From Paracoccaceae bacterium (GTDB lineage Bacteria; Pseudomonadota; Alphaproteobacteria; Rhodobacterales; Rhodobacteraceae), in NCBI GenBank assembly GCA_014654775.1, contig JACVZW010000014.1, forward strand, positions 1 to 64,000: 64,000 nt of DNA. Reading direction: 5' to 3'. This document shows positions 27,831 through 46,196 of this stretch, in pieces; position 1 is the stretch's first letter, and the number at the start of each line of letters is the position of its first letter. The translations under genes and the position numbers were made by a program. The notes below the pieces were generated by a model, which made no database searches, was not told the DNA's origin, and saw nothing but the letters and a program-made list of their open reading frames with translations.

Positions 27831-27845
27831 GCCCCGTCAGGGCTT
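27829..27845. terminator. Bidirectional hairpin between ilvD and the methyltransferase gene
   Basis: AAGCCC (27829-27834), five bases, then GGGCTT (27840-27845). The stem uses the last bases of the ilvD stop codon and extends into the 3' end of the convergent methyltransferase gene. It is the only terminator-like structure at the end of the long minus-strand operon. Confidence 0.5.
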
Positions 27846-28610
27846 GCGGGCCGCCAGATGCGTGGGGCAGTGTTCGCCGCTGTCCAGCACCGGGATCATC
27901 CGCGACCAGATGCCGACATTCTGGTCGACGAAATCCTGCCCCACGATCTGCGCGGCCTTGGCCCCCACATCGCCCTTCAGGCGCGCGAGTTCCTCGCGCG
28001 CCTTTTCCCTGTACCACGCATTGCGCGAGGTGGCGCTGGTCTCGGTGAAGCCCGCCTTGGCCATGGCATCCAGATAGCGCGAGGCGGTGGCCATCCCGAA
28101 ATCCAGCCCCTCGGCCGCGATGTAATCGGCCATCAGCGGGCTGATCGCTTCCGTCCCGATCAGCCAGTCAGACGCAAGAAACCACCCGCCGGGTTTCAGG
28201 ACGCGAAACACCTCTTCCATCAGGGCGTGCTTGTCGGGGATATGGATGATGGAATCCTTGGAGAACACCACGTCGAAGGTTCCCGGCGGAAAGGGCAGGG
28301 GGCCGGGGGCCACCTTGACCAGCCCGATCCGGGGGGTCAGGCCCGCCGCCTCCACCAGCCCGCGCGCATGGGTCAGGACCGGGTCTTCGACATCCAGCCC
28401 CGTCACATAGCCCGCGCCATGGGTCTGCACGAGGGCGATGTCGATCCCGCCCGCCCCGCAGCCGATATCGAGGACGGACTTCCCCGTCAGGTCATGCGCG
28501 CCGATCACCCGCGCCACCTCCTCCGGCCCGCCGGGAGAGAGGAAGCCCTGTCCCCAGATCGCCTCAAGCATCGCGATCATGCGGGGCGGGTAATGGTCGT
28601 GCTCGCTCAT
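27837..28610 (-). CDS. SAM-dependent methyltransferase (PMT/class I)
   Basis: A 257-residue cytoplasmic methyltransferase. SAM-binding motif I is SVLDIGCGAGGIDIAL (about 43-58), motif II is TGLDVEDP (about 69-76), and the acceptor region FSKDSIIHIPDKHALMEEV followed by VLKPGGWFLASDW (about 113-145) is the phosphoethanolamine N-methyltransferase-like pattern. The substrate is unknown. It is the last gene of the 13-gene minus-strand operon, 13 bases after the amidohydrolase, so it might act on an amine in the same pathway. ATG 28610 is chosen because the upstream frame extension lacks family sequence. Confidence 0.85.
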   Translation of the reverse strand: MSEHDHYPPRMIAMLEAIWGQGFLSPGGPEEVARVIGAHDLTGKSVLDIGCGAGGIDIALVQTHGAGYVTGLDVEDPVLTHARGLVEAAGLTPRIGLVKVAPGPLPFPPGTFDVVFSKDSIIHIPDKHALMEEVFRVLKPGGWFLASDWLIGTEAISPLMADYIAAEGLDFGMATASRYLDAMAKAGFTETSATSRNAWYREKAREELARLKGDVGAKAAQIVGQDFVDQNVGIWSRMIPVLDSGEHCPTHLAARKP

Positions 28611-28623
28611 CTTTCGGCTCCGG

Positions 28624-30231
28624 TCAGAGGGTGGGGGCCTGCCAGACAGGGCGGCCTTTAAAGAGGGTAAGAAGGACGGTCGTGTCGGACAGCTCATCCG
28701 CCGGACAGGCAAAGATGTCGCGGTCCAGAAGGATCAGGTCGGCGGAAAAGCCGGGGCGCAGGATACCACTGTAACCGTCGCGCCAGCAGGCGCGGGCGGC
28801 ATGGGCGGTGTAGCCAAGGACGGCTTCTTCGATGGTCAGGGCCTCGCCGGGCAGGAAAGGGGGTTTCGGGCCGTCGATACGGCGGGCTTGCCGGGTGAGG
28901 GCGGTTTCCATGATCTCAAACGGGTTGAGCGTGCTGACCGGCCAGTCAGAGGACAGGCACCAGTCGGCCCCGTGGTCGAGCAGCGTGCGGAAGGCGTAGG
29001 TCTGCGGGTGGCGGTCCGCCCCGATCATATCCAGCGCGATGTCGGGAACGACGGGATCATATCGCGCCCAGAGCGGTTGGATGTTCGCGGTGGCAAGCCG
29101 GGGCAGGCGGGCGGCATCCTCGGGTGCCACAAGTTGCAGATGGGTCAACTGGTGCTGCGCGGGCCACGGGCCGTTGGCACGACGGGCGGCGGCGAGGCCG
29201 TCAAGGGCGCGGCGCGTGGCGGCATCGCCGATGACATGGACATGGATCGCAAACCGCGCGGCATCAAGCGCGGTGAAAAGCGCCTCGGTCTGTGCGGCCC
29301 CGAACATAGAGGGGGCGTTGCCGCCGGGTGCATCGGCATAATCGGCAAGGCAGGCGGCAGTGCGGTTCTCGAACACGCCATCCATGAAGAACTTGGCCGA
29401 ATGGATGTGGAAATCCGGCCCCGGATGGGCGGTGCGCAGCGCGGTCAGGCGGGCGGTGGCGGTGTCGGGCGTGTCCGCCTCCGTCACCAGTGCCGCGCCG
29501 CAGATGCGCAGAGTCAGGTTGCCCGCTGCTTCGGCGGTGGCGTAGATGCGGGCTTCGGTCTCCGTGACTCGCGGGTCGAGGACACCGGTGATCCCGTGGC
29601 GGTTGGCATGGGCCATGGCGGCGGCAAGGCCCTGCCGCAGGTGATCGTCTGTCAGTTGCGGCAAACGAGCGACGGCCCAGGGGATGACCTCTTCATGCAG
29701 CATTCCGGTGGCGCGGCCCTTTTCATCGCGGACGATATGGCCGTTGGGCGGATCGGGCGTGTCGTCGATGATCCCGGCCATCTGCAGCGCGTGGGTGTTC
29801 AGGCAGGCATTGTGGAAGGAACTGTCATAGATCACCGCAGGCCGGTCGGGCAGGACACGGTCGAGCAAAGCGGCGGTCAGGTTGTGATCGCCAAAAATGC
29901 CCGGCTGCCAGCCGCTGCCCATCACGACGGGCAGGTCGGGATGCGCCTTGGCATGGGCGGCGAGGGTGGCGAGCAGCCCATCCTCATCCGTCACATCATA
30001 GAGCATGGCCGAGGTGGCAAGATCGGTGCCGCCCGACAGCAGGTGAATATGCGGGTCCTGAAAAGCGGGCAGGATCAGCCGGCCTTGGGCGTCCATCGTC
30101 TCGGATGCATCAGGCGGGCTCCCATGGCCCAACGCTGCGATGCGACCGTCGCGGATCAGGACCCAGTCGGCGGTCGGTCGGGCCGCATCCATCGTGCGGA
30201 TGCGGGCATTGTGGATCAGAAGGTCAGGCAT
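28624..30231 (-). CDS. YtcJ-like metal-dependent amidohydrolase
   Basis: A 535-residue amidohydrolase-superfamily enzyme (amidohydro_3/YtcJ group). The metal motif DPHIHLLSGG lies near residue 58-67, further ligands near HVHVIGDAA (about 335-343) and HLQL (about 365), and the late aspartate in LSSDWPVS (about 428-435). Such enzymes hydrolyse cyclic amides, formamides or N-acyl groups; the substrate cannot be told. The start overlaps the preceding cupin gene by eight bases. In context it could open a ring or remove a formyl or acyl group in the operon's catabolic pathway. Confidence 0.83.
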   Translation of the reverse strand: MPDLLIHNARIRTMDAARPTADWVLIRDGRIAALGHGSPPDASETMDAQGRLILPAFQDPHIHLLSGGTDLATSAMLYDVTDEDGLLATLAAHAKAHPDLPVVMGSGWQPGIFGDHNLTAALLDRVLPDRPAVIYDSSFHNACLNTHALQMAGIIDDTPDPPNGHIVRDEKGRATGMLHEEVIPWAVARLPQLTDDHLRQGLAAAMAHANRHGITGVLDPRVTETEARIYATAEAAGNLTLRICGAALVTEADTPDTATARLTALRTAHPGPDFHIHSAKFFMDGVFENRTAACLADYADAPGGNAPSMFGAAQTEALFTALDAARFAIHVHVIGDAATRRALDGLAAARRANGPWPAQHQLTHLQLVAPEDAARLPRLATANIQPLWARYDPVVPDIALDMIGADRHPQTYAFRTLLDHGADWCLSSDWPVSTLNPFEIMETALTRQARRIDGPKPPFLPGEALTIEEAVLGYTAHAARACWRDGYSGILRPGFSADLILLDRDIFACPADELSDTTVLLTLFKGRPVWQAPTL

Positions 30232-31075
30232 GGGCGGCGGCCTCCAGTTCCGGCCAGTCATCGGCGGGGATAACTTCGGCGATCTGGTTCACATCCCGCG
30301 TCCAGACGAAGAAGGCGAGGAAAGGGGTCGCCCCCGTCCGCGTCAGATGCGGGCGATGGGGCGGGTTCCAGACAGGGTCATGCGCAGGCTTTGCGTGCAG
30401 CGCGTCGCCGGGACCAAAGCGCCAGTGATGCGGGCCGGTGAGGGGCGCATAAAGCTCTGGCGCGGCGTGGTGGTGATCGCGGTAAAGCGTGCGGGGCGCG
30501 ATCAGGAAGAGGCCAAGGTCAAAATCGGCGGCGGTGAAGGGCGCATCCTCGCCCCGGATGGAGGCGAAGGCATGACCCGTGGCGAAGGCATCGCCGATCA
30601 GGGCGCGGGGGTATGCGTCATAGGTGACCCAATGCAGATGCTGCGCGGCGGCGCGGATCGCCTGCGCCAGCAGGGGATGGGTCCGTGCGACGCTATCCAG
30701 CGCGGGGTCTAGCCACGCCGCGACGACCGGGTTGGGCAGCGGCATGACCGCCCGCTCAGGCCCCGGATCGGCAGGCAGGCCCGCACGGACATCCGCCGCG
30801 CCGGGGTGAACCAGACCCAGCAGATAATACCGCGCGCTGTCATAGAGAGATCGGAGGGGTCCGCCCGCCTCCGCCCCCGGCACGGGCGGCAGGCCACGTT
30901 CGGCAAGGATCGGCGCGGGGTCGCGCCCGTCATGGGCAGAGGCTTCGCGATAGACCTCCAACTGCGCCTCGCTCATCCGCCCCTCGCGGAACAGGGCCAT
31001 GGCCGCGCCATAGCGCACCCGTCCCGACCCCGGCACGCCAAAGGGCGCATGCAGAAGGGCGCGCGCGTCAGTCAT
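30224..31075 (-). CDS. DMSP-lyase-like cupin protein
   Basis: A 283-residue protein with a helical N-terminal half and a C-terminal cupin (about 185-275). Candidate metal ligands are H201-H203 and E207 in LYRDHHHAAPELY, Tyr209, and H240 or H243 further on. This HHH-x3-E-x-Y arrangement is that of the DddL/DddQ dimethylsulfoniopropionate lyase family. In DddQ the metal and tyrosine perform beta-elimination to acrylate and dimethyl sulfide. Whether this protein cleaves DMSP is unclear, since it is longer than DddQ (about 200) and sits in an operon of N-demethylation-type genes. It may act on another onium compound. It overlaps its neighbours on both sides by eight bases. Confidence 0.65.
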   Translation of the reverse strand: MTDARALLHAPFGVPGSGRVRYGAAMALFREGRMSEAQLEVYREASAHDGRDPAPILAERGLPPVPGAEAGGPLRSLYDSARYYLLGLVHPGAADVRAGLPADPGPERAVMPLPNPVVAAWLDPALDSVARTHPLLAQAIRAAAQHLHWVTYDAYPRALIGDAFATGHAFASIRGEDAPFTAADFDLGLFLIAPRTLYRDHHHAAPELYAPLTGPHHWRFGPGDALHAKPAHDPVWNPPHRPHLTRTGATPFLAFFVWTRDVNQIAEVIPADDWPELEAAAHA

Positions 31076-31907
31076 TGCTGCGATAGGCCATGCGTTCGTC
31101 AGCCAGACGCCGCGCCTCGGCCCGGTTCAGGATGATGCCCGCGATGATGACACCCAGACCCACCGTCACCACCATCAGCGTCGCCAGCGCGTTGATATCG
31201 GGGGTGACGCCGAGTTTCACCTTCGACCAGATCAGCAGCGGCAAGGTCGTCGCCCCCGGCCCGGTGGTGAAGGTCGTGATGACCACATCATCCAGCGAGA
31301 TGGTGAAGGCCAACAGCCAGCCCGACAGGATGGCGGGACTGATCACCGGCAGCGTCACGTCGAACAGCACCTGCCACGGGCGTGAACCAAGGTCCATCGC
31401 CGCCTCTTCGATCGCGCGGTCGGCCTGCACCATGCGCGCCTGCACGATGGTGGTCACGAAAACCATGGAAAAGGTGATATGCGCCAAGGTGATTGTGGTG
31501 AAGCCGCGCTGTCCGGGCCAGCCGATCCATTCCGCCAGCAGGATGAAGAAGATCAGGCTGGAGATGCCGGTGATCACCTCCGGCATGATCAAGGGCGCGG
31601 TGACAAGGCCCGAGAACATCACGCGGCCTTTGAACCTGCGGAACCGCGCCAGCGCGATGCCCGCCATGGTGCCAAGGATGGTGGCGAAGGTGGCAGAGAC
31701 GACGGCGATCTTCAGCGACAGGATCAGCGCATCCATCACCTGCTTGTTCGACAGAAGCGAGACATACCACTTCGTCGAAAACCCGCCCCAGACCGTGGCA
31801 AGACGCGAGCCGTTGAAGCTGTAGACGATCATCGACAGGATCGGGATGTAGAGGAAGGCAAAGCCAAAGCAGAGGACGGTGATCAGGAAGACGGGGCTGC
31901 GCTTCAT
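31068..31907 (-). CDS. Spermidine/putrescine-type ABC permease (PotC/PotI-like)
   Basis: A 279-residue inner-membrane permease with six predicted helices. The EAA loop signature EEAAMDLGSRPWQVLFDVTLP (from residue 167) contacts the ATPase. The N-terminus MKRSPVFLITVLCFGFAFLY is the first helix. It follows the other permease gene with a four-base overlap and is the last transporter gene in the operon. The importer carries the operon's substrate, judged from the contiguous catabolic genes. PotC-class permeases also transport other cationic or zwitterionic amines, so polyamines should not be assumed. Confidence 0.9.
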   Translation of the reverse strand: MKRSPVFLITVLCFGFAFLYIPILSMIVYSFNGSRLATVWGGFSTKWYVSLLSNKQVMDALILSLKIAVVSATFATILGTMAGIALARFRRFKGRVMFSGLVTAPLIMPEVITGISSLIFFILLAEWIGWPGQRGFTTITLAHITFSMVFVTTIVQARMVQADRAIEEAAMDLGSRPWQVLFDVTLPVISPAILSGWLLAFTISLDDVVITTFTTGPGATTLPLLIWSKVKLGVTPDINALATLMVVTVGLGVIIAGIILNRAEARRLADERMAYRSND

Positions 31908-32821
31908 TTCGATCCCTCCGCCCGGCCTTGGAAATGGGTGTAGATCATCGTCGGGATCACCATCAGCACCAAAAGCGCCACAGCCACGGCTGACGCCATG
32001 GGCCAATCCCGCGCCGAAGCGAATTCGTCCGAGATGACGCGCCCGATCATCGGATCGGCAGCATTGCCCACCAGCGTGGGGATCACCAACTCCCCCGCCG
32101 CCGGGATGAAGACCAGCATCCCGCCCGCCACGATGCCGGGGATGGATTGCGGCAGCGTCACGTCGCGGAAGACCTGCGCGGGGGTGGAGCCAAGGTCCAT
32201 CGCCGCCTCGTCCAGCGTGGGGTCCAGCCGTTCGAGGCTGGCGTAAAGCGGCAGGATCATGAAGGGCAGGTAGGTATAGACCATCACAAGGATGACGGCG
32301 AAGTTGGAATTCATCATCGGGATGGACCGCACGGCCCAGTCGACGGGAACGATGAAGTTCCACCAGTCGGTCAGCATCACGTTGAACCAGCTGTTCCGCC
32401 CCATCAGCCCCATCCAAGCGTAGACGCGCAGCAGGAAGGACGTCCAGAAGGGCAGGATCACCAGCATCAGCATGATGTTGCGCCACCCCCGCGACATCCG
32501 CGTCAGGGCCAGCGCCATCGGATAGCCCAGCAGCAGGCAGAGAACCATCGAGATGGCCGCATTGGCCAGCGAGGTGAGGAAGGCACGCAGGTAGAGGTCA
32601 TCCGTCAGGATGCGCTGATAGGCGTCCAGATTGATCAGCGGATGGTCACCACCGAAGGAAAAGGGGGGCGCGGTCGGGGTCTTGGTCGCCACGCTCATCG
32701 CCACGACGATCAGGAAGGGCAGCAGGAAGAAGACCACCAGCCAGATATAGGGCGCGCCGATGATGATGTCCGACCAGCCCCGGCGATCCATGTATTTCGT
32801 GCGGGGCGCGCGGTCGGTCAT
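31904..32821 (-). CDS. Spermidine/putrescine-type ABC permease (PotB/PotH-like)
   Basis: A 305-residue inner-membrane permease with six helices. The first is WLVVFFLLPFLIVVAMSV (about 25-43), and the EAA loop DEAAMDLGSTPAQVFRDVTLP starts near 208. It pairs with the PotC-like subunit to form the channel. It starts four bases after the ATPase stop. ATG 32821 is supported by the typical short basic N-terminus MTDRAPRTKYMDRRG. Confidence 0.9.
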   Translation of the reverse strand: MTDRAPRTKYMDRRGWSDIIIGAPYIWLVVFFLLPFLIVVAMSVATKTPTAPPFSFGGDHPLINLDAYQRILTDDLYLRAFLTSLANAAISMVLCLLLGYPMALALTRMSRGWRNIMLMLVILPFWTSFLLRVYAWMGLMGRNSWFNVMLTDWWNFIVPVDWAVRSIPMMNSNFAVILVMVYTYLPFMILPLYASLERLDPTLDEAAMDLGSTPAQVFRDVTLPQSIPGIVAGGMLVFIPAAGELVIPTLVGNAADPMIGRVISDEFASARDWPMASAVAVALLVLMVIPTMIYTHFQGRAEGSK

Positions 32822-32825: not shown

Positions 32826-33941
32826 CTATTCCGCCAGAACGATCGCGGCGGCGGGATCGAAGGACAGCCAGACGGCATCGTCCCAATCCGCCACCCGCGC
32901 ACCTTCGTCGCCGCGTCGGGCGTTCACCGCATGGGCCTGCACCAGCGTGCCGGAGGGCAGGGCGATGCGATACAGGCTGTCCTTGCCGAAATAGGCAAGG
33001 TCCTTGACCGATCCGCGCAGCGCGTTCGGACCTTCGGGCGCATCGCGGCTGATGCGAATCTTCTCGGGCCGGATGGCCAGCGTCACCGATTGCCCCGCCG
33101 TGACATGCGGCACATCGCGCGCCGTGACCTCGGCCCCCAAGGCGGGCAGGGTCAGGCGCAGCTGTCCCGCGTCGCGCGCGGTGACGATGGCGTCGAACGT
33201 GTTGATCGACCCGATGAAACCCGCGACAAAACGGCTGTTCGGGAATTCGTAGATTTCCGTCGGGCTGCCGATCTGGCGCACCTCGCCCTTGTCCATCACC
33301 GCGATGCGGTCGGACAGGGTCATCGCCTCTTCCTGATCATGGGTCACGACAATGAAAGTGACGCCAGTCCTCTGCTGGATCGACATCAGTTCGAATTGGG
33401 TGTGCTCGCGCAGCTTCTTGTCCAGCGCCGCCAACGGTTCATCCAGCAGCAGCAGCTTGGGCTGCCGCGCAAGGGCACGGGCCAGCGCCACGCGCTGCCT
33501 CTGGCCGCCCGAAATTTGATGCGGCTTGCGCGCGGCGAATTGGGACAGTTGCACCAAGTCCAGCATCTCGCGCACGCGGTCGGCCCGATCCTTGGCCGAC
33601 ATATCTTCATGCTTCAGGCCATAGGCGACGTTCTTCTCCACCGTCATATGGGGGAAAAGCGCATAGCTTTGAAACATCATGTGGACAGGGCGCGACCATG
33701 GCGGAACCCCGGCCATGTCGCGCCCGTCAAGGAAGATACGGCCTGCCGTGGGTTCCTCGAACCCCGCAAGCATCCGCAAAAGCGTGGTCTTGCCGCAGCC
33801 GGACCCGCCCAAAAGCGAGAAGATCTCGCCCTTCTGCACGGTGAGAGAGACGTTCTTCACCGCCTGAAAGGTGCCAAAGACCTTGGATACCCCTTCGATC
33901 CGCAGGAAGGGTTCGCCCGCGCCGGGCGCGTCTGCGGGCAT
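32826..33941 (-). CDS. Spermidine/putrescine-type ABC ATPase (PotA-like)
   Basis: A 371-residue importer ATPase. Walker A GGSGCGKT spans 45-52, the Q-loop is near Q91, the signature ISGGQRQ spans 143-149 and Walker B LLLLDEP spans 163-169. The C-terminal TOBE domain (about 290-365) is typical of the PotA/MalK class. It begins two bases after the binding-protein stop. The whole transporter is complete, in the order binding protein, ATPase, permease, permease. Confidence 0.92.
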   Translation of the reverse strand: MPADAPGAGEPFLRIEGVSKVFGTFQAVKNVSLTVQKGEIFSLLGGSGCGKTTLLRMLAGFEEPTAGRIFLDGRDMAGVPPWSRPVHMMFQSYALFPHMTVEKNVAYGLKHEDMSAKDRADRVREMLDLVQLSQFAARKPHQISGGQRQRVALARALARQPKLLLLDEPLAALDKKLREHTQFELMSIQQRTGVTFIVVTHDQEEAMTLSDRIAVMDKGEVRQIGSPTEIYEFPNSRFVAGFIGSINTFDAIVTARDAGQLRLTLPALGAEVTARDVPHVTAGQSVTLAIRPEKIRISRDAPEGPNALRGSVKDLAYFGKDSLYRIALPSGTLVQAHAVNARRGDEGARVADWDDAVWLSFDPAAAIVLAE

Positions 33942-33943: not shown

Positions 33944-35047
33944 TCAGCCGCCCGTCTTGATTTCAGTCCAAGCGCGGGTCATGTCGGTTTCCTGCTGATC
34001 GGTCTGGGGCAGGGGGGTGTACATCCGCGACAGCGCCTCGCTGTCCGGATAGACCGCCGGATCGGCGGCAATGGCCGGATCGACGAAGGGCAGCGCCGCC
34101 TTGTTCGCGCTGGCATAGCCGGTGAAGTTGGTGCAGGCGGCGATCACCTCGGGGCGCAGCAGGTAATCCATGAAGCGATGCGCGTTGTCCACATTGCCTG
34201 CATCGGACGGCATGACCCAGACGTCGAACCACGCAGGCGCGCCGGTCTTGGGGATGAAATACCCAAGGTTCAACTCAATCCCCGCCTCGGCCGCGCGGGC
34301 CTTGGCCACGCCATAGTCACCCGACCATGTGTTGATGGCGCACAGCTCGCCATTCGGGATGGTGGTCAGGTAGTTGGCATTGTCGAAGGTGGCGATGTAC
34401 TCGCGGATCGGGCGGACAAGCTCCACCATCTTAGCCCATTCCTCGGGCCCTGCCGTGTTCGGGTCGATCCCCAGATGGCTGAGCAGCATGAACCCGATAT
34501 CGGTGGGGCTATCCAGAAGCGAGATGCCACAATCGGCCAGCAGCGCCGCATTTTCTGGCTTCAGGATCGTGTCGAGCGAGTGCAGATCGGCATCCGGCAG
34601 CCGTTCCTTCACCATGTCGAGGTTGTAGGTCATGCCGACCGAGCCCCACATATAGGGAACGCAATAGTCATAGCCCGGATCATAGGTTTCACCGATCCGC
34701 AGGATTTCGGGGTCAAGATTGCCCCAGCCCGTCAGCTTCGCCCTGTCGATCTTCTGCAGCACCCCCGCCTGAACGGACCGGGGCAGGCCCTGACCGGAAT
34801 GCAGCACAACATCATAGCCGGTGGACCCGGCCAACAGCTTGGCCTGCATCTCCTCCGAGCTTGCATAGACATCGTAGACCACCTCGATGCCGGTTTCGGC
34901 GGTGAAATCGGCCAGCGTGGTTTCGCCGATGTAATCCGACCAGTTGTAGACATTCACCACCCCACCCTGCGCCCAAGAGGGGCGAACAAAGGGGGCCGAC
35001 AGCGTGGCGCCCATCCCGAGAAGGGTGCTGCGACGGGTCAGTTTCAT
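33944..35047 (-). CDS. Pot-type periplasmic substrate-binding protein (PotD/PotF-like)
   Basis: A 367-residue binding protein. A twin-arginine-like signal (LTRRSTLLGMGATLSAPFV) directs export, with cleavage near PSWAQ (about residue 27). The mature N-terminus VVNVYNWSDYIGETTLADF matches the PotD/PotF family, where the tryptophan and aspartate contact the amine. Specificity could be a polyamine or a quaternary amine. It is preceded by the only sizeable gap in the operon (40 bases, 35048-35087), which might allow a secondary promoter or differential expression of the transporter. Confidence 0.9.
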   Translation of the reverse strand: MKLTRRSTLLGMGATLSAPFVRPSWAQGGVVNVYNWSDYIGETTLADFTAETGIEVVYDVYASSEEMQAKLLAGSTGYDVVLHSGQGLPRSVQAGVLQKIDRAKLTGWGNLDPEILRIGETYDPGYDYCVPYMWGSVGMTYNLDMVKERLPDADLHSLDTILKPENAALLADCGISLLDSPTDIGFMLLSHLGIDPNTAGPEEWAKMVELVRPIREYIATFDNANYLTTIPNGELCAINTWSGDYGVAKARAAEAGIELNLGYFIPKTGAPAWFDVWVMPSDAGNVDNAHRFMDYLLRPEVIAACTNFTGYASANKAALPFVDPAIAADPAVYPDSEALSRMYTPLPQTDQQETDMTRAWTEIKTGG

Positions 35048-35087: not shown

Positions 35088-36305
35088 TTACGCCGGGGGG
35101 TGATTCCGGCAAGCCATTTGTGCGTTCAGTGCAGGAATCTGGCTTTCCTCCGGCGCTTCATCCAAGGCCAGCACGGGCAAAAGCGCGCGCAGCCCGTCAT
35201 GGTGCCGCCGCAGCCCGTATTCGAGATCGGAGAGGTGGAATCCTTCAAAGGATTGCGACTTCATCGACTCGTTCGACCAGATCGACAATTGCTGATCCTC
35301 GACCGAGGTGGCGCGGTCGATCCGCATCGCCAGATAGCGCGCCAACCGGGTTTCGCGGCTTTCATTCGCCCAGCGATAGGTACGGCCCGTCAGGCGGGTG
35401 TTGCCCACCGACAGGGGGATGTCCTGATAGAACTGCACCCCTTCCGGCGTCATCGAAAACACGATGCTGGGGAAGATGCCGTAATAGGTCCAGGCCTTTT
35501 GCAGATGCGGCGGCAGATCGGGGCGCTCGGGCGAATGCTTCACATATTGCCGGACCGACCAGCCCCGCCCCGGCGCATCGCCGTACCAGCCAATCGACAT
35601 CGACAGCCCGTTTTCCAGCTGATGGTCGCGATAGGTGCGCCCGTAAAGCTCCTGCAGCGCGGGATGGGCGAGGGCGACGTGATAGCCTTCGTTGTCCACG
35701 TCGCGGACGGATTTCCAGTTTACGGGAAGTTCGGTGGACCAGTCCGGTGTCTTGACCGGCAAAAGCTCGGTCATCCGATAGGCGGCGAAATCCCCGGCGA
35801 AGGGGGCCAGCAGATCAGCCACAGGCGGCTGCGGCCCCGGCTTGAATCGGATGAAGAGAAAGCCGTGCGCGATGGACAGCTCGATCGGTTTCAGCCCGAA
35901 CTGATCGCGGTTCATCTCGCCGAAGGTAGAGGGGCGGGCCGCCCCGCGCAGCGTGCCGTCAAGGTTATAGACCCAGCCGTGGAAAGGGCAGACGATGGCG
36001 CCCTTGCAGCTGCCCTCGGCCCCGTCCACCACCCGCGCACCACGGTGGCGGCAAAGGTTGTGGAAGGCCCGCACGACGCCATCCGCGCCGCGCATGACAA
36101 CGGCGCGTTCGCCCAGCAGGTCGAAGGACAGCCAGTCGCCCGGATCGGGGATGTCGCATTCATGGCCGACGATCTGCCAATGCGTGAGGAAAACCTCATC
36201 GCGTTCCAGATCGAAAAGCGCAGGCGAATGATAGGCCCAGGCGGGCAGGCCGCGACGGTCCCAATCATTCGGGACAGGCAGGGTGGCATAGGGCAGATCG
36301 GTCAT
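35088..36305 (-). CDS. Rieske non-haem iron oxygenase alpha subunit (first)
   Basis: A 405-residue oxygenase component. The [2Fe-2S] Rieske ligands are C85, H87, C106 and H109 (NLCRHRG, CPFHGW). The mononuclear iron histidines are H209 and H214 in NEGYHVALAHP, with D204 bridging. This pattern occurs in Rieske monooxygenases for carnitine, stachydrine and related N-methyl substrates as well as in aromatic ring hydroxylases. A reductase partner is needed and is not encoded nearby. It overlaps the second Rieske gene by four bases, so the pair probably act on successive intermediates. Confidence 0.88.
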   Translation of the reverse strand: MTDLPYATLPVPNDWDRRGLPAWAYHSPALFDLERDEVFLTHWQIVGHECDIPDPGDWLSFDLLGERAVVMRGADGVVRAFHNLCRHRGARVVDGAEGSCKGAIVCPFHGWVYNLDGTLRGAARPSTFGEMNRDQFGLKPIELSIAHGFLFIRFKPGPQPPVADLLAPFAGDFAAYRMTELLPVKTPDWSTELPVNWKSVRDVDNEGYHVALAHPALQELYGRTYRDHQLENGLSMSIGWYGDAPGRGWSVRQYVKHSPERPDLPPHLQKAWTYYGIFPSIVFSMTPEGVQFYQDIPLSVGNTRLTGRTYRWANESRETRLARYLAMRIDRATSVEDQQLSIWSNESMKSQSFEGFHLSDLEYGLRRHHDGLRALLPVLALDEAPEESQIPALNAQMACRNHPPA

Positions 36306-38622: not shown

Positions 38623-40130
38623 CGGTCCGCCTCCATCGCCAGCGCGGCGTTCCATCCGGGCGTGCCCGAAACGCCACCGCCGGGGTTGCAGCCTGCGGAG
38701 GCCAGCCACAGCCCCGCGATGGGCGTGCGATATTGCGCGATGCCGGGCAGGGGTCGCAGGAACAGCATCTGTTCGACGCTGAGTTCCCCCGCATGCCAAT
38801 TGCCGCCGGGAAGGCCGGTTTCCGCTTCGATGTCATAGGGCATGCGCAGGCACGCTTCGGTGACCTTCGCGCCGATACCAGGGGCATGGCGTTCCAATTG
38901 CAAAAGGCAGGCCGCCAGCATCGCGGCGCGGGCGGCGGTGCAGTCCTTCGGCGCATGGGGCGCGTATTGCACGATGGCCGACAGGCGGTGCAGGCCATCG
39001 GGCGCGGGGGTGCGGGCGGTGGGGATCAGGATTTCCATCACCGGTTCCTCCGGCACCTCGCCGTATTTCACCGGGTTGAAGGCGCGTTCGACATGGTGCT
39101 CCGACGGCGCGATCAGCAGGCGATGCGTAGGGTCAGCCCCCCGGAAATCGGGCAGGGCGGACAGCGTCAGGTCCAACCGTGCCGCGCCACCCCGCGCCTT
39201 CTGCAGCCGGGCACGTGTATAGAGACCGTTGTCCAGATGCCGCGGCCCTACCAGAGACATCAGCGTGGTCTTGGGGGCGAGGGCCGAGACGATGCGCCTC
39301 GCCGCGATCTGTTCCCCGCTGGTCAGCGTCACGCCCGTGGCGGTGCCATCCGCCACGTCGATCCGTTCCACGCGGGCATTGCAGCGCAGGGTGACACCAG
39401 CGGCCGTCGCCGCTTTGACCATCGCCGCCGCCAACGCAGGCATCCCGCCTTCGGGCAGGCCAAGCGCGCCCTGCCGCCCCTCCGTTTGGCCCGACAGGCG
39501 ATAAAGCCACGGCAGCACGGAATTGGGCGACCGGGGGCCAAGCCACGAGCCGAGCGTCGCATCAAAGGCCAGCGCCCCTTTCAGAAGAGGCGAGCGAAGC
39601 TCGTCATCCAGCAGGTCGAAGACATTGGTGAGGAAGATACGACCCAGTTCACGGAACTCTGCCGCGCCCATCATCCGCGCCTTCAGCCCGATCATGGCCA
39701 GTTTCAACAGCGGGTTCTTCGGATCGGCAGCCGGACGCGGCGGCGTCATCGCGTTCAGGGGCGCAAGCACGGCAGCAAAGCGCAGAAGGCGCGCGCGCAA
39801 CTCCGCCCATGCGGCGATATCAGCAGGGTCAACAGCACCCGACAGGCGTTCGCCCAGAACCCCCTCCATCCGCAGATGGTTGCCATCGGCGGCCAGCGCG
39901 GTGGTGGGCAACGCGGTCGTCGCCCATCTCAGCCCATGCCGCGCAAGGTCCATCCCTTCGGCCACCCGTGGGTCAAGGTTATAGGACAGATGCGCCAGCG
40001 CCGCCGCCCCGCCCCCCGGCACGGCCCCCGCCTCCAGCACAAGGACCGACGCCCCGCCCTTGGCCAGCCGATGCGCGGCGGCAAGGCCATTGGGGCCCGC
40101 GCCGATGACGATGGTGTCAAACGATGGCAT
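38619..40130 (-). CDS. CrtI-like NAD(P)/FAD-dependent oxidoreductase (second)
   Basis: A 503-residue flavoprotein with the N-terminal Rossmann motif VIGAGPNGLAAAHRLAKGG (7-25) and a C-terminal FAD-binding closure GCNPGGGVSGTPGWNAA (near 478-494). The fold is that of phytoene desaturase/polyamine oxidase-like amine oxidoreductases. Carotenoid synthesis genes are absent, so oxidation or isomerisation of an amine-containing intermediate is more likely. It is a paralogue of the next gene, and the pair may form a heterodimer. It overlaps the GcvT-like gene by four bases and the other flavoprotein by 14. Confidence 0.82.
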   Translation of the reverse strand: MPSFDTIVIGAGPNGLAAAHRLAKGGASVLVLEAGAVPGGGAAALAHLSYNLDPRVAEGMDLARHGLRWATTALPTTALAADGNHLRMEGVLGERLSGAVDPADIAAWAELRARLLRFAAVLAPLNAMTPPRPAADPKNPLLKLAMIGLKARMMGAAEFRELGRIFLTNVFDLLDDELRSPLLKGALAFDATLGSWLGPRSPNSVLPWLYRLSGQTEGRQGALGLPEGGMPALAAAMVKAATAAGVTLRCNARVERIDVADGTATGVTLTSGEQIAARRIVSALAPKTTLMSLVGPRHLDNGLYTRARLQKARGGAARLDLTLSALPDFRGADPTHRLLIAPSEHHVERAFNPVKYGEVPEEPVMEILIPTARTPAPDGLHRLSAIVQYAPHAPKDCTAARAAMLAACLLQLERHAPGIGAKVTEACLRMPYDIEAETGLPGGNWHAGELSVEQMLFLRPLPGIAQYRTPIAGLWLASAGCNPGGGVSGTPGWNAALAMEADR

Positions 40131-41730
40131 AGGCGTCGCTCATATGGTCAACGGGCTGGCGCAGGTCGCGCAGCACCTCGCGCGCCGCGTTCCTTCCCGG
40201 CGCGCCCATCACGCCCCCGCCCGGATGGGTGGAAGACCCGCAGATCCACAGATCCTTCACCGGGGAACGGTAATTGGCATAGCCCGGCACGGGGCGGTTG
40301 AAGAACATCTGGTCAAAAGTCAGCTCGCCCTGGAAGATATTGCCTTCGGTCAGGCCCACCTCTGCCTCCAACTCGCGCGGGGTGCGCACCTCGACATGCA
40401 GGATCAGGTCGCGGAAACCGGGGGCATAGGCCTCGATCTGGTCGATGCAGGTCTTGGCAAAAGCGTCGCGGTCGGCATCCGTCCACGGCTTCCCTTCGAT
40501 CTGGGGCGGGGCGTATTGCACGAAGCAGGACATGAAATGCTTGCCCGGCGGCGTCATCGTCGGGTCGATCATCGTGGGGATCATCACATCTTGGAACGGA
40601 TGGCGGCTGAAGCGTCCCGCCTTCCAATCATCATAGGCGCGTTCCATCTGGTCGATCGTATCGGTGAAATGCAGATCGCCCTTGATGTTGGGCGCCCCCT
40701 CCGGCAGCGCGGTGAAGCGCGGCACCCCATCCAGCGCAATGTTCAGCTTGCCAGACGATCCACGGGTCTTGAACCGCTCCACCCGTTTCACGAAATCGGC
40801 GGGCAGTTCCTTGCGGTCGACATGGCCAAGGAAGGTGCGGCGGACATCCATGTTCGACAGCACGCGGCGGGCCGAAATCTCATCCCCATTGGCCAGCACC
40901 ACGCCCGTCGCGCGCCCGCCACTGATGCGCACCTCCTGCACCCCCACGCCCGCGCGGATCTCGCCCCCCGCGGCGCGGAAACTGTCGGCCAGCGCGCGGG
41001 TGATCGATCCCATGCCGCCCCGCGCATAGCCCCATGCGCCCACGTTCCCGTCCACATCCCCCATCGCATGATGCAGCAGGACATAGGCCGTCCCCGGCGA
41101 CATCGGCCCCAACGCCGTGCCGATGATCGACCCCACAGCCTGATAGGCCTTCACCGCCGGGTTCTCGAAATACTCGTCCAGAAAATCGGCAATCGACATG
41201 GTCCAAAAGCGCAGCATGTCACAAAGCGCGGCTTCGGACTGCCCGGTGATCTGGCGGCCAAGCCAAAGAAGCTCCGACAGGTCGCGCGGGTGGAAACTGG
41301 CCAGATCGGGCGGGCGACGCATCAGCATGGGCCGGATCAGGCGGCAGTTCCGCAGGATGTCGCGGGCATAGCGGTCATAGGCCTCGGCATCCCGGCGGGA
41401 ATGGCGGGCGATCTCGCGGCGGTTCGATTCATGGTCGCGGAACATGCCCAGATAGCCGCCGTCGCGGGTCATCAGCGCGCCACCCTCATAGGGCAGGATC
41501 TGCAACCCGTGGCGCGGCAGATCGAGATCGCGCATGATCTCGGGCCGGAACAGGCTGCTGACATAGGAACAGTTGGAATAGGTGAAACCGGGGTAAAGCT
41601 CGCGGCTGACCGCAGCGCCGCCGATCCAGTCGTTCTTTTCCACGATGACGGTCTTCAGGCCCGCCCGCGCCAGATAGCAGGCGGCGACAAGGCCATTATG
41701 CCCCGCCCCGATGACGACGGCATCATACAT
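40117..41730 (-). CDS. CrtI-like NAD(P)/FAD-dependent oxidoreductase (first)
   Basis: A 537-residue flavoprotein, paralogous to its neighbour. The FAD-binding motif is [19 protein letters not shown] (6-24), and the C-terminus has [17 protein letters not shown] (near 503-519). A middle stretch [12 protein letters not shown] (about 229-240) is also shared with the CrtI/CrtO-like group. Its start overlaps the aminotransferase stop by eight bases and its end overlaps the second flavoprotein by 14 bases. The function is unknown beyond flavin-dependent oxidoreduction. Confidence 0.83.
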
Positions 41731-43087
41731 GGGCCGGTTCCCCGGCCGCCTCGGCCGCCAGATCCTCCAGCGTCAGGTCGACGGCGGTTTCCACCGCGCG
41801 CAGCGTGTCGGTCAGGCAGGTCGGATCCAAACCATGCGCCTCGCACATGAACCATGGTTCGCGGCTGTCGGGTTCGCAGATGATGCCCAGATCGTGCAGG
41901 TAATGCGCCATCCGGTCGTAAAAGCTGTAATCCGACGTCTTCCACGCGCGATAATTGTCGGGCGGTTCCGGCGCGAAGAACAGGCCGAACATCGACGGAT
42001 GGCCGGAAAACGAATGCACGATCCCCCGCGCATTCAGAATGGCCGAAATGCCCGCCTTCAGCCTTTCGCCATAGCTGGCCAAAGTCTCCAACGCCGGGGT
42101 TTCGTCAAGGATGCGCAGGCATTCCTCGGCTGCGGCAAGGCTGACGGAATGAGCGGTATAGGTGCCGCCATGGCTCGCCCCGCCATAGCGGAAGGATCGC
42201 ATCACCTCTTCCCGGCCTGCGACGACGGCGATGGGATAGCCGTTCGCCACGGCCTTGGCGAAGGTGGTGATGTCGGGCGTCACGCCAAGGATGCCCTGAA
42301 TACCGCCCTTGCCAACGCGGAAGCCCGACTTCACCTCGTCGATAATCAGCATCACACCGTAACGGGTGCAAAGCTCGCGCGCGAGGCGAACGTATTCGGC
42401 ATTCGCCATGATCGAACAGCAATTGCCTTGGATCGGTTCGATCAGCATCGCGGCCAATTGATTGCCATGGCGGCGAAAGACATCTTCCAGCCGCTGCAGA
42501 TCGTTCATCGGCGTCAGATGGGCAAGGCTGCGGACGGTGGGCGGGATGCCCTTGCCATAGGGCACGACCTCGGGGTCGGCATTGCCGCCCTGCTGCCAGC
42601 CTTCGACATCGGCCTGCCACATCGCGGCATCGAACAGGCCGTGATAGCCACCCTCCACCAGCAGATAGGATTCCCGCCCCGTATGGGCGCGGGCAAGGCG
42701 CAGGGCGGCCATCACCGCCTCGGTCCCCGAATTGGAAAAGCGCACCAGTTCGGCGGCAGGCACCATCTTGGCGATCCGGTCCGCGACGATCAACTCGCGC
42801 TCGGTCGACAGGGCGAAGACGCCGCCCACCTCCATCCCCTTGCGGGCGGCGGCATCCACCCGATCATCGGCATAGCCAAGGATCGCAGGGCCATAGCCGA
42901 GGCGGTAGTCGACATAGCAATTGTCGTCGATATCCCATGTCCGCCCGCCCTTCCCGCGCGCGACATAGATCGTCCGATCCTCGCCCCAATAGCGGAAGGT
43001 GGAGGATACGCCCAAAGGCAGCCGCTTCACGGCGCGTTGGAACTGGGCGTTGGATTTGGTCAGGGTGCGCCGGGGCCGGAGGGTCAT
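41723..43087 (-). CDS. Class III PLP aminotransferase (glutamate-1-semialdehyde aminomutase-like)
   Basis: A 454-residue PLP enzyme of the HemL-like branch of class III aminotransferases. PLP contacts are in SNSGTEAVMAALRLARA (118-134), IIDEV (D250), and the Schiff-base lysine K278 in FAKAVANGYP. It is longer than HemL (about 430) and clustered with catabolic genes, so it is probably an amino- or amine-transaminase of the pathway. It is the first gene of the 13-gene operon. The upstream dyad at 43127-43146 lies 40 bases before the ATG, where a repressor would block transcription. Confidence 0.88.
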   Translation of the reverse strand: MTLRPRRTLTKSNAQFQRAVKRLPLGVSSTFRYWGEDRTIYVARGKGGRTWDIDDNCYVDYRLGYGPAILGYADDRVDAAARKGMEVGGVFALSTERELIVADRIAKMVPAAELVRFSNSGTEAVMAALRLARAHTGRESYLLVEGGYHGLFDAAMWQADVEGWQQGGNADPEVVPYGKGIPPTVRSLAHLTPMNDLQRLEDVFRRHGNQLAAMLIEPIQGNCCSIMANAEYVRLARELCTRYGVMLIIDEVKSGFRVGKGGIQGILGVTPDITTFAKAVANGYPIAVVAGREEVMRSFRYGGASHGGTYTAHSVSLAAAEECLRILDETPALETLASYGERLKAGISAILNARGIVHSFSGHPSMFGLFFAPEPPDNYRAWKTSDYSFYDRMAHYLHDLGIICEPDSREPWFMCEAHGLDPTCLTDTLRAVETAVDLTLEDLAAEAAGEPAHV

Positions 43088-43126
43088 GCGGGACTCGCGG
43101 TGTTGTGATGCCCAAGGCTGGCATTC

Positions 43127-43146
43127 GACTGACTGAGTTGTCAATC
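43127..43146. promoter_or_regulatory. Candidate TetR operator, GACTGAC-N6-GTCAATC
   Basis: An imperfect dyad (6 of 7 base pairs) in the 163-base divergent region between the aminotransferase and TetR genes. TGAC-N6-GTCA is exact at its core. Its position 40 bases from the operon start and about 105 bases from the regulator start suits a site controlling both directions. Confidence 0.5.
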
Positions 43147-43250
43147 AATTCTTTTCCCCAGCAGCTTTCTGCGATACGATCCCCCTTGTCTTGCGGGCCT
43201 TGGCCGCCGACATGTGTCCCGACCGAACCCTGTGCCGTGAAAGGTGTCCC

Positions 43251-43895
43251 GTGACCGAACCCGCCCTTCAGACCGACCCACGCCCGCCCCGCACCCTCAG
43301 CAAGGATGCGCGGCGCACGCAGCTGATCGAGGCGACGATCAGCACGATGGCCGAATTCGGCTATTCCCGCACCACGCTGACGGCGGTGGCGCGGCGGGCA
43401 GGGCTGTCTCATGGGCTGGTGCTGTTCCACTTCCACACGAAGGAAAACCTGCTGTCCGAAACGCTGGATCACCTGTCGGCCGAGTATCGCGCCAACTGGC
43501 AGGCGGCGCTGGCTTCGGCCGGGGATCGGCCCGAAGCACAGCTCGAGGCGCTGGTGCGCGCCGATTTCAACCTGTCGATCTGCACCCGCGACCGTCTGGC
43601 CGCCTGGTGCGCCTTCTGGGGCGAAAGCCAAAGCCGCCCCATCTATCAGGCCCGCTGCGGATCGAATGACGATCATTACAACCAGATGCTGGAAGGCATC
43701 TGCGCTCGGATGAACACGGTGCATGGCTATGCCCATGACCCGGCGCGCGTGTCGCGGCTGATCCGCATCTCCATCGAAGGGGTCTGGCTCGACCTGATGA
43801 CGATGGCCACGCCCTACCCGACCCAAGAGGCGATGGCGACGGTCTGGCTGGGTCTCTCTGCGCTCTATCCTCGGCACTTCCAGACGCGGCCCTGA
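43251..43895 (+). CDS. TetR-family regulator (BetI-like)
   Basis: A 214-residue one-component repressor. The HTH (about 35-70) reads SRTTLTAVARRAGLSHGLVLFHFHTKENLL. The C-terminal ligand domain has the BetI/TetR_C_6 feel (CAFWGESQSRPIYQ, IRISIEGVWLDLM). BetI represses choline-glycine betaine genes, which fits the methylamine theme of the divergent operon. GTG 43251 preceded by AAAGGTG is preferred over a TTG at 43191. It probably represses both the 13-gene operon and itself, releasing them when the pathway substrate is present. Confidence 0.87.
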   Translation: MTEPALQTDPRPPRTLSKDARRTQLIEATISTMAEFGYSRTTLTAVARRAGLSHGLVLFHFHTKENLLSETLDHLSAEYRANWQAALASAGDRPEAQLEALVRADFNLSICTRDRLAAWCAFWGESQSRPIYQARCGSNDDHYNQMLEGICARMNTVHGYAHDPARVSRLIRISIEGVWLDLMTMATPYPTQEAMATVWLGLSALYPRHFQTRP

Positions 43896-43991
43896 TCCGC
43901 AGGCGCACCCGCCCCCCGCCGATCGCATCTGGAGAATTCGCCCCGCATCTGTGAAGAACGGTCCGGACAGGATGCCGCGCCGAAAGGGTGG

Positions 43992-46196
43992 ATGATGGAT
44001 CGCTGCGAGATCGTGCATGAAAACTTCCTGCGCCGGGTGGCCGCGCGGGACTTGCCGGAGGGGCGGGCACCATCCGGGCCGATGACGCGCGACGAGGCCC
44101 TCGCCGCCTACCGTGCCGCCTGCCTGACCCGCGCGCTGGATCGGCAAAGCCGCGCGATGCAGCGGGCCGGGCAAGGGTTCTACACCATCGGGTCGTCCGG
44201 GCACGAGGCGATGGCGGCTGTTGCGCTGGCGTTGCGGCCCGATGACATGGCCTTCCTTCACTACCGTGATGCGGCCTTCCAGATCGCGCGTGCCGGGCAG
44301 GTGCCGGGGCAGGACCCGATGTGGGACATCCTTCTGTCCTTCGCCTCGTCCTCCGAAGACCCGATCTCGGGCGGGCGGCACAAGGTGCTCGGGTCGCGCG
44401 CGCTGATGATCCCGCCACAGACATCCACCATCGCCTCGCATCTGCCCAAGGCGGTGGGGGCGGCCTATTCGGTGGGCGCGGCGCGGCGGCATCGGCCCGA
44501 ACACGCGATCCTGCCCGAGGATGCGGTCATCCTGTGCAGCTTCGGCGATGCCTCTGCCAACCATTCCACGGCGCAAGGGGCCTTCAACGCCGCGCAATGG
44601 ACGGCCTATCAATCCATCCCATTGCCCCTGCTCTTCGTCTGCGAAGATAACGGGATCGGGATTTCCACCCGCACGCCCGCTGGTTGGATCGAGGCGACGT
44701 TCAGCGCCCGCCCCGGCCTGCGCTATATCAAGGCCGACGGGCTCGATCTCTTCGACACCTACCGCGCCGCGCGCGAGGTGGTGGATTGGGTGCGCAGCCG
44801 CCGCAAGCCCGCCTTCCTGCACCTGCGCACGATCCGCCTCTTCGGCCATGCCGGCGCGGATGTGCCAACGACCTATCTCCCGCGCGAGGTTGTTGAGGGC
44901 GAAGAGGCGCAGGACCCCCTGCTGCACGCCGTCCGTCTGCTGGATCAGGCCGGGGTGATGGACCCTGACGCAGCGCTGGCGATCTACACCGAAACCTGCG
45001 ACCGCGTGGCCCAAGTGGCGGAACAGGCCGTCACGCGGCCCCGCCTGCAGACAGCCACCGACGTGATGGCCAGCCTGATCCCCCCCCGGCGCACAAACCG
45101 CCCCAGCAACGGCCCCACGCCGCAGGCGCGGGCGGCGGCCTTCGGGGCCGACCTCAAGGCGATGGAAGACCCGCAAATCCTGTCGCGCCTTGTGAACTGG
45201 GCACTGACCGACCTGATGCTCGCCCATCCCGAGATCGTGCTGATGGGCGAGGATGTGGGAAAGAAGGGCGGCGTCTACGGCGTGACGCAGAAACTGCAAG
45301 CGCGGTTCGGCGCGGACCGGGTGATCGACACGCTGCTGGATGAACAGTCGATCCTCGGCCTTGCCATCGGCATGGCGCAGAACGGCTTTGTGCCGATGCC
45401 GGAAATCCAGTTCCTCGCCTATCTCCACAACGCCGAAGATCAGATCAGGGGCGAAGCCGCGACGCTGCCTTTCTTCTCCAACGGCCAGTTCAGCAATCCG
45501 ATGGTGCTGCGCATCGCAGGGCTGGGCTATCAAAAGGGCTTCGGCGGACATTTCCACAACGACAATTCGCTGGCCGTGCTCCGCGACATTCCCGGCGTGA
45601 TCCTTGCCGTGCCATCGGACGGGGCCGAGGCGGCGATGATGCTGCGCGAATGCGTCAGGCTGGCGCGGGAAGAGCAACGGGTGGTGGTCTTCCTTGAACC
45701 CATCGCGCTGTATCCGATGCGCGATCTTCATGCGGAGAAGGATGGCGGCTGGCTGCGTCCCTACCCCGACCCGTCGCGGCGCATCCCCTTTGGCGAGGTG
45801 GGGGTGACGGGCGAAGGCACCGACCTCGCCATCGTGACCTTCGGCAATGGCGTTTACCTGTCGCATCAGGCCCTGCCCGCACTTGCGGCCGCGGGGATCA
45901 AGGCGCGCATCGTCGATCTGCGCTGGATCGCGCCCCTGCCCAAGCCGGGGATCAGCGCGGCGGTGCAGGGCTGCGCCCATGTGCTCGTGGTCGATGAGAC
46001 GCGGCATTCCGGCGGGATGGCCGAGGCGGTGATGGCCCATCTGGCCGAAGTGTCGCCCGCCCGCATCGCGCGGATCACGGCCGAGGACAGCTTTATCGCC
46101 ACTGGCCCCGCATATGCTGCCACGATGCCGTCAAAGGATGGGATCGTTGCGGCGGCGCTGCGCCTGACCGGGCGCACCGGGCCGGGACCCCGCTGA
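43992..46196 (+). CDS. Fused E1 alpha-beta thiamine pyrophosphate dehydrogenase
   Basis: A 734-residue 2-oxo acid dehydrogenase E1 protein with both subunits in one chain. The alpha part (about 35-330) has the TPP motif starting FGDASANHSTAQG (184-196) and ending near CEDNGIGI (217-224). The beta part (about 395-720) has GEDVGKKGGVYGVT and the C-terminal transketolase domain (about 580-705). It resembles branched-chain 2-oxoacid or acetoin E1 enzymes. No E2 or E3 gene is near, so partners must be elsewhere. It shares the strand of the TetR gene, 96 bases downstream. The start may be ATG 43992 or 43995. Confidence 0.85.
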   Translation: MMDRCEIVHENFLRRVAARDLPEGRAPSGPMTRDEALAAYRAACLTRALDRQSRAMQRAGQGFYTIGSSGHEAMAAVALALRPDDMAFLHYRDAAFQIARAGQVPGQDPMWDILLSFASSSEDPISGGRHKVLGSRALMIPPQTSTIASHLPKAVGAAYSVGAARRHRPEHAILPEDAVILCSFGDASANHSTAQGAFNAAQWTAYQSIPLPLLFVCEDNGIGISTRTPAGWIEATFSARPGLRYIKADGLDLFDTYRAAREVVDWVRSRRKPAFLHLRTIRLFGHAGADVPTTYLPREVVEGEEAQDPLLHAVRLLDQAGVMDPDAALAIYTETCDRVAQVAEQAVTRPRLQTATDVMASLIPPRRTNRPSNGPTPQARAAAFGADLKAMEDPQILSRLVNWALTDLMLAHPEIVLMGEDVGKKGGVYGVTQKLQARFGADRVIDTLLDEQSILGLAIGMAQNGFVPMPEIQFLAYLHNAEDQIRGEAATLPFFSNGQFSNPMVLRIAGLGYQKGFGGHFHNDNSLAVLRDIPGVILAVPSDGAEAAMMLRECVRLAREEQRVVVFLEPIALYPMRDLHAEKDGGWLRPYPDPSRRIPFGEVGVTGEGTDLAIVTFGNGVYLSHQALPALAAAGIKARIVDLRWIAPLPKPGISAAVQGCAHVLVVDETRHSGGMAEAVMAHLAEVSPARIARITAEDSFIATGPAYAATMPSKDGIVAAALRLTGRTGPGPR

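Follow-up and report, generated by a model that had tools for sequence, protein, structure and literature searches.

A conserved gene cluster of Rieske oxygenases, paired CrtI-like flavoproteins and GcvT in Rhodobacterales and rhizobia: a candidate N-demethylation unit

Introduction

N-methylated amines make up a large nitrogen and carbon pool in the sea and in soil, and to our knowledge several of them are without known degraders. The present work concerns a 13-gene operon on contig JACVZW010000014.1 of a Paracoccaceae bacterium (assembly GCA_014654775.1, 4.5 Mb in 93 contigs); positions 1 to 64,000 of this contig (C14), the whole stretch analysed here, are called the window. The operon associates two Rieske oxygenases (Ri1 and Ri2), two CrtI-like flavoproteins (CrtI1 and CrtI2) and a GcvT protein with a PotDABC-type importer.

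Among described systems, sarcosine oxidase SoxBDAG and N-methylglutamate dehydrogenase MgdABCD presumably join a flavoprotein to a GcvT-type tetrahydrofolate (THF) module and a small subunit. A GcvT/THF partner for N-demethylation is reported for dimethylamine monooxygenase DmmDABC and trimethylamine N-oxide demethylase Tdm in PMC5520151. For Rieske enzymes acting on quaternary ammonium compounds, PMC7948474 reports that the residue two positions before the bridging Glu sorts the family: Tyr or Phe marks clade Va (carnitine, choline, benzalkonium) and Asn marks clade Vb (glycine betaine, stachydrine), Asn being reported for GbcA and Stc2. Titles and abstract openings of open-licence papers, a set outside which preprints and most subscription papers lie and in which absence therefore counts for little, gave no description of the present gene set.

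A first-pass annotation of the window had proposed an undescribed demethylation pathway. A conserved and apparently undescribed N-demethylation unit is supported here by its synteny, its Rieske residues and its THF-type GcvT; the fused E1 dehydrogenase as a member, the GbcA label and dimethylsulfoniopropionate (DMSP) as core substrate did not survive.

Results

All 13 genes were found on the minus strand from 43087 to 27837 (Table 1) and their nearly gapless arrangement was confirmed. Eight of the 12 junctions are overlaps (8, 14, 4, 1, 4, 4, 8 and 8 bases) and the remaining four are gaps of 40, 2, 4 and 13 bases, 40 being the widest, these lengths depending on the start codon chosen for each open reading frame (ORF). 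Pfam and NCBIfam identified a class III transaminase, two CrtI-like flavoproteins, GcvT, two Rieske oxygenases, PotDABC, a DMSP_lyase cupin, an Amidohydro_3 protein and a methyltransferase. These are largely the families first named, except for the HemL and GbcA labels and for the cupin gene, which is a two-domain fusion. A TetR gene with a BetI-type C-domain and a fused E1 gene diverge from the operon.

Among annotated plasmids the best match is one of 169 kb from Fuscovulum ytuae, on which the same 13 genes are present in the same order. Ri1 relatives at E 1e-40 or better were found in 21 of 295 genomes of the family, host included, and 20 stretches around such relatives in other genomes were compared. 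In ten of them (L028-L034, L037, L043 and L044), a divergent TetR gene accompanies the order CrtI1-CrtI2-GcvT-Ri1-Ri2-PotD-PotA. A transaminase match is present as well in eight of the ten, and nine, all but the short L031, continue with PotB, PotC and a match to the cupin gene, which in L029 and L044 covers the N-terminal domain only. The other ten stretches contain parts of the operon, or Ri1 alone. The amidohydrolase was matched in four of the 20 family loci outside the host genome, with one further short and weak match. Most of the operon is thus retained, in this order, by other genera.

When named genomes were scanned with an alignment of CrtI1, 584 loci were confirmed, the best 80 of which are referred to below as the relatives; picked by CrtI1 similarity, they are non-independent and favour the core. 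Some of the loci compared in this work represent the same organism twice (L028 and L106; L044 and L121), also within the 24 binding-protein rows described below. They come from Rhodobacterales, from many Mesorhizobium, from Rhizobium, Shinella, Phyllobacterium, Kiloniella laminariae and Aestuariispira insulae, and from gammaproteobacterial metagenome-assembled genomes (MAGs). CrtI1 is followed by CrtI2 and then by GcvT in 70 of 70 eligible relatives, i.e. those with at least 3.3 kb downstream (10 of the 80 loci being left out). A chance cluster is rejected by this trio and by the synteny kept in other genera.

Flanking genes were scored in the 51 relatives with 9 kb on both sides (29 of 80 left out), by tblastn at E 1e-5 anywhere in the locus, so that paralogues are possible and Ri1 and Ri2 cross-match. 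TetR was matched in 49, the class III transaminase in 46, PotA together with PotB or PotC in 46, the cupin or small domain in 37, the methyltransferase in 31, a Rieske protein in 29, the amidohydrolase in one and E1 in none. Of the 22 full-flank relatives whose stretch gave no Rieske match, 21 have a single Ri2 match in their genome at E 1e-60 (56-62% identity), in some cases, judged by position, apparently just outside the fetched stretch; in the remaining one (L183), no Ri2 match was found genome-wide at E 1e-60. Among 385 genomes from the class, 17, host included, matched the CrtI1 profile with E 1e-200 or better, and CrtI1 was found in 33 of 299 genomes of the phylum at E 1e-100 or better, mostly at about 40% identity. 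Together, these results show that the unit is real but patchy in distribution, and that its core consists of the CrtI1-CrtI2-GcvT trio, a Rieske oxygenase (mostly Ri2), a class III transaminase, the importer and a BetI-like TetR.

The fused E1 has no counterpart in the same place of F. ytuae nor in the relatives' flanks, which often extend only about 3 kb beyond TetR. It was rejected as a pathway gene (0 of 51 full-flank relatives; not beside TetR in F. ytuae) and is probably a lineage-specific neighbour. One Rhodobacterales-type operon was found in a MAG titled Exiguobacterium profundum (L119), a record name that is likely wrong; its ORF table lists Ri1 and Ri2 twice each, perhaps as split frames.

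Ri1 and Ri2 share 31% identity over 211 columns. The Rieske motif and the His pair at the mononuclear iron are intact in each. The Glu that bridges the Rieske and mononuclear iron sites, Glu205 in carnitine monooxygenase CntA, aligns with E201 in Ri1 and with E206 in Ri2. The sorting residue of Ri1 is Tyr, both in the window and in all 26 distinct readable relatives (30 rows), whereas that of Ri2 is Asp, in the window and in all 44 (48 rows). Relatives with at least 40% identity were counted; for each Rieske protein two fragments were unread and two duplicate rows were merged. When only residues 151-260 were considered, 21 of 29 Ri1 and 42 of 47 Ri2 relatives were readable. The Asp of Ri2 agrees with neither of the published clades and might serve to pair with a cationic amine. 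Ri1 was matched as such in 12 of the 80 relatives and Ri2 in 36, Ri2 being their commoner Rieske protein. The best solved matches include CntA as well as 3vca and 4qup, which we take to be the stachydrine demethylase Stc2. Identity with the glycine betaine monooxygenase GbcA is rejected, the two proteins scoring 153.4 and 128.3 bits against an NCBIfam equivalog cut-off of 670. With these scores, and with Tyr or Asp instead of Asn at the sorting residue, the GbcA-type label proposed for one of the two had to be dropped.

The absence of a Rieske reductase from the operon, already remarked on in the first-pass annotation, was confirmed. The GbcB model gave no match at cut-off in the whole genome, and none of the 14 control genomes reaches the cut-off either; its picks, neither near the cut-off, are a protein on contig C83 and one on C58. 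PF00970, PF00175 and PF00111 occur together in the C83 protein only, which adjoins a haem-dependent N-demethylase-like (HODM_asu-like) gene and a GcvT gene. Nine PF00111 ferredoxin-type matches were found in the genome, the search being confined to the reductase types named here. The electrons for the Rieske proteins may be supplied by housekeeping ferredoxin and reductase, by the C83 protein or by the two CrtI proteins. The C83 region (L201, 2022-5868) is itself a dimethylamine-monooxygenase-like cluster with GcvT, DmmA-like and HODM_asu-like genes (compare PMC5520151).

The transaminase scored best with the NCBIfam model GntE (415 bits, below the cut-off of 525); its earlier "HemL-like" name is not retained, HemL identity being rejected (TIGR00713, 325.5 bits against 527.3). 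CrtI1 and CrtI2 are 31% identical. Neither is CrtO (295.6 and 156 bits, respectively; cut-off 1000) nor a carotenoid CrtI (112.8 and 97.1 bits; cut-off 238.1). The best NCBIfam match of GcvT is the GcvT half of trimethylamine N-oxide demethylase, below cut-off, and DmdA identity was not reached (127.4 bits against 410).

In the cupin gene product, PF16867 (DMSP_lyase) covers residues 104-254 (77.1 bits, cut-off 27), with no other Pfam match, and the metal motif HxHxxxExY is present. An S-G-R-x-R-Y-(A/G)-A-A-M ... L-E-(V/A)-Y-R stretch lies within residues 1 to about 65, and this N-terminal domain aligns with a separate protein of 69-99 residues encoded after GcvT in 33 of the 80 loci, mostly titled rhizobia; the small protein of L104 has no Pfam match. 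The domain occurs without the cupin in L029 and in L044/L121 (one organism), and the cupin without the domain, in the called frame, in L116 and L123. Structure models predict a helical N-terminal part for the window fusion (predicted local distance difference test, pLDDT, 91.9) and a helical Mesorhizobium small protein (pLDDT 90.8). The fusion model matches DddQ (E 1e-12, about 20% identity), and a fold search of the PDB with the small protein returned eight matches, the best at E 6.7 and none significant. Since the small domain is more widely kept than the cupin, it is suggested to be a subunit or scaffold of the CrtI/GcvT enzyme. The cupin-domain family was found in only 7 of the 80 relatives, and DMSP as core substrate is rejected on this count. 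Of the former description as a DMSP-lyase-like cupin, the domain and its metal motif stand, in a gene that is a two-domain fusion.

The binding protein scored 330.5 bits with the PotF model, below the equivalog cut-off of 636. Its pocket was compared in an alignment of 24 rows at 40% identity or more. The window and 23-24 of the 24 rows have W37, D39, an Asp in place of E185, W244, D247, D278 and Y314, and positions 87 and 88 differ. All four pocket acids are present in the window, and in the alignment D39 is kept in 23, the Asp replacing E185 in 24, D247 in 24 and D278 in 23 rows. For the window-type importer, their retention suggests that the ligand carries two positive groups; it is silent on the rhizobial type.

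Two cluster types were distinguished. The window type combines a GntE/HemL-like transaminase, a PotF-like importer, Ri1 and Ri2, and most of the records in which it is found bear the title Rhodobacterales, a few MAGs having other titles; Kiloniella and some gammaproteobacterial MAGs likewise have its transaminase and importer. The clusters of rhizobia and some marine ones retain Ri2, CrtI1, CrtI2, GcvT, TetR and often the methyltransferase, with a different class III transaminase family and a binding protein 20-27% identical to that of the window. The window-type transaminase family was matched in 15 and the other family in 43 of the 80 relatives; the one member of the latter that was scored, from L105, exceeds the NF005447 cut-off. 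As distantly related proteins of the same kind fill the transaminase and importer roles, both functions appear to be needed. A flavin amine oxidase family was found in 24 of the 80 relatives (one member scored) and an aldehyde dehydrogenase family in four (the Kiloniella member scored best with PuuC, at 549.5 bits below the cut-off of 850). The Kiloniella locus also holds a CoA ligase and an acyl-CoA dehydrogenase, which together with the aldehyde dehydrogenase plausibly form a downstream route. The S-adenosylmethionine (SAM) methyltransferase, matched in 37 of the 80 relatives, recurs within what is proposed to be a demethylation cluster. On plasmid pW43C of Parasedimentitalea marina (L105, 7901-32920), four Rieske genes surround the trio, near which lie genes for an old yellow enzyme (OYE)-type flavoprotein and a 3-keto-5-aminohexanoate cleavage protein.

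The TetR protein scored 98.1 bits with the BetI model TIGR03384, below the cut-off of 201.3. Its longest ORF begins at 43191; the start in Table 1 follows the F. ytuae annotation. The space between the transaminase and TetR genes contains TTGATTGACAACTCAGTCA (43130-43148, minus strand), a palindrome of the form TTGATTGAC-N6-GTCA, which overlaps a TTGACA that may be read as -35-like. Aligned relatives retain TTGAC-N6-GTCA at the same place. A one-strand scan of 103 sequences (2.05 Mb) gave 31 exact matches, 22 of which, spread over 20 loci, precede the first operon gene and are mostly beside a called TetR; the other nine are inside genes or at gene ends. The control, three block shuffles with no match, was crude. 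The 18-base pattern has one perfect match genome-wide and four with two mismatches (control pattern, none). These four further sites weigh against an operator, as does the finding that, with up to three mismatches, 17 of 100 window shuffles give at least one match. A different palindrome, TTGTTGAACATTCATTCAA or near it, precedes CrtI1 in 18 of 50 mostly rhizobial loci (L126-L175) and resembles what we take to be the BetI box.

Downstream of the operon, 21278-27830 (plus strand) holds an ilvD-like gene together with DUF6671, DUF2309 and proton-conducting subunit genes; the latter, identified by size and order against F. ytuae, are of the kind present in DAB-type inorganic carbon pumps. Upstream, amino-acid-type ABC importer genes occupy 47057-50193 (minus strand; two scored by NCBIfam), and F. 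ytuae has a four-gene ABC set at the matching place. This importer could serve a related substrate.

Table 1. Features of the operon and its divergent neighbours in the window, in order of transcription for the operon genes.
Feature	Position	Strand	Basis
Class III pyridoxal phosphate transaminase, GntE/HemL-like, first operon gene	41723..43087	-	Pfam Aminotran_3; NCBIfam GntE
CrtI1, FAD amine-oxidase/CrtI-superfamily flavoprotein	40117..41730	-	Pfam/NCBIfam; alignment of 18; FAD motif
CrtI2, paired flavoprotein	38619..40130	-	Pfam; identity to CrtI1 (31%)
Stand-alone GcvT/THF-type aminomethyltransferase	37438..38622	-	GCV_T, 202 bits
Ri1, Rieske oxygenase, bridging Glu and Tyr at CntA-203 position	36302..37438	-	Pfam; CntA alignment
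Ri2, Rieske oxygenase, bridging Glu and Asp at CntA-203 position	35088..36305	-	Pfam; CntA alignment
PotF-like solute-binding protein	33944..35047	-	PDB match to PotF chains, E 1e-93
PotA/PotG-like ATPase	32826..33941	-	TIGR01187, 392.7 bits, cut-off 355.6
PotB/PotH-like permease	31904..32821	-	NCBIfam
PotC/PotI-like permease	31068..31907	-	NCBIfam
Fusion of N-terminal helical domain (about 65 residues) and DMSP-lyase-type cupin	30224..31075	-	PF16867; alignment; structure model
Amidohydro_3 amidohydrolase, peripheral	28624..30231	-	Pfam
Class I SAM methyltransferase	27837..28610	-	Pfam
BetI-like TetR regulator	43251..43895	+	TetR_C_6; start by analogy with annotated F. ytuae length
Candidate palindromic operator	43130..43148	-	Sole perfect genome match of 18-base pattern; same place in relatives
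Fused E1 alpha/beta 2-oxoacid dehydrogenase, directly after TetR	43992-46196	+	

Discussion

From the gene content, order, conservation, key residues and conserved palindrome observed here we infer the following scheme, with its substrate, its reactions, an enzyme complex, and both the inducer and the site of the repressor. At roughly even odds (about 0.5), the operon is substrate-induced and serves to break down a small N-methylated amine with two positive charges. The substrate would be a diamine- or polyamine-like molecule with a quaternary or tertiary methylated nitrogen, taken up by the PotF-type importer. Both Rieske oxygenases would attack the methylated nitrogen, the Tyr of Ri1 holding a quaternary ammonium by a cation-pi contact and the Asp of Ri2 holding a cationic amine. 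CrtI1, CrtI2, GcvT and the small helical domain may form a multi-part amine dehydrogenase, analogous to SoxBDAG, that strips further methyls and delivers the one-carbon unit to THF. The class III transaminase would convert the freed primary amine to an aldehyde, and the BetI-like TetR is predicted to repress from the palindrome until substrate binds.

Several points weigh against this scheme. The methyltransferase, the cupin domain and the amidohydrolase have no place in it, no Rieske reductase was identified for Ri1 and Ri2, and we know of no studied precedent for Asp at the Ri2 sorting position. The pocket positions are those presumed to contact putrescine in PotF, numbered on a chain that is an engineered variant, and the divergence of the rhizobial and some marine binding proteins confines the dication argument to the window-type importer.

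Ri1 might instead be a CntA-like C-N lyase that hydroxylates the carbon beside a quaternary nitrogen and frees tri- or dimethylamine for separate dimethylamine monooxygenase and GcvT modules. Its Tyr marks clade Va in PMC7948474, and the C83 cluster of the same genome could supply such modules. An operon-borne GcvT and two amine-oxidase-type flavoproteins would, however, be superfluous for C-N cleavage, and Ri1 is matched in fewer relatives than Ri2 (12 against 36 of 80), so that we regard this explanation as rather improbable. The compound demethylated might also be an amino-acid betaine, such as glycine betaine or proline betaine. This would agree with CntA and the presumed Stc2 structures being among the best solved Rieske matches, and with the BetI-like regulator; we consider it quite unlikely, as neither Rieske protein has the Asn of clade Vb, both fall far below the GbcA cut-off and four acids for cationic groups are retained in the binding protein. 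The methyltransferase, with its matches in 37 of 80 relatives, could also be the central step in biosynthesis or remodelling of a methylated amine, but the dedicated importer and the THF-type GcvT, like the aldehyde dehydrogenase and CoA-ligase genes of one relative, Kiloniella, point to breakdown and make this very unlikely.

Catabolism of a doubly positive N-methylated amine thus remains our preferred reading. More tentatively, CrtI1, CrtI2, GcvT and the small domain may constitute a new multi-part, THF-coupled N-demethylase that works with a new Asp-type Rieske subclass. The two would then define a widespread but unrecognised pathway by which Rhizobiales, Rhodobacterales and some other proteobacteria process methylated cationic amines. 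New in this work are the fusion domain, the sorting residues of Ri1 and Ri2, the pocket acids, the palindrome and the result on GbcB-type reductases. Because the conserved unit has a single importer, a single regulator and a defined set of core enzymes, a so far unnoticed pathway becomes directly testable, and CrtI1-CrtI2-GcvT and Ri2 provide marker genes for Mesorhizobium, Rhizobium, Shinella, Rhodobacterales and other genomes.

Compared with known systems, Ri1 and Ri2 share the Rieske motif, His pair and bridging Glu of the group V enzymes CntA, Stc2 and GbcA; Ri1 carries the Tyr of clade Va, whereas the Asp of Ri2 is neither the aromatic residue of Va nor the Asn of Vb, and the operon has no reductase gene. 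The importer has the family and pocket acids of the putrescine importer PotFGHI, but scores below the PotF cut-off and differs at positions 87 and 88. With the DMSP lyases DddQ and DddK the fusion protein shares the cupin fold and metal motif, unlike them it has an extra N-terminal domain, the identity is about 20%, and the cupin family is found in 7 of the 80 relatives. N-demethylation with a GcvT/THF partner would be common to the operon, the dimethylamine monooxygenase DmmDABC and Tdm, although the operon uses other oxidative enzymes and the Dmm-like cluster is separate in the same genome. Relative to SoxBDAG and MgdABCD, the flavoproteins are CrtI-type and paired, GcvT stands alone, and the small protein scored here has neither a Pfam match nor a PDB fold match; what the operon would share with those systems is the idea of a flavoprotein working with a GcvT-type module and a small subunit.

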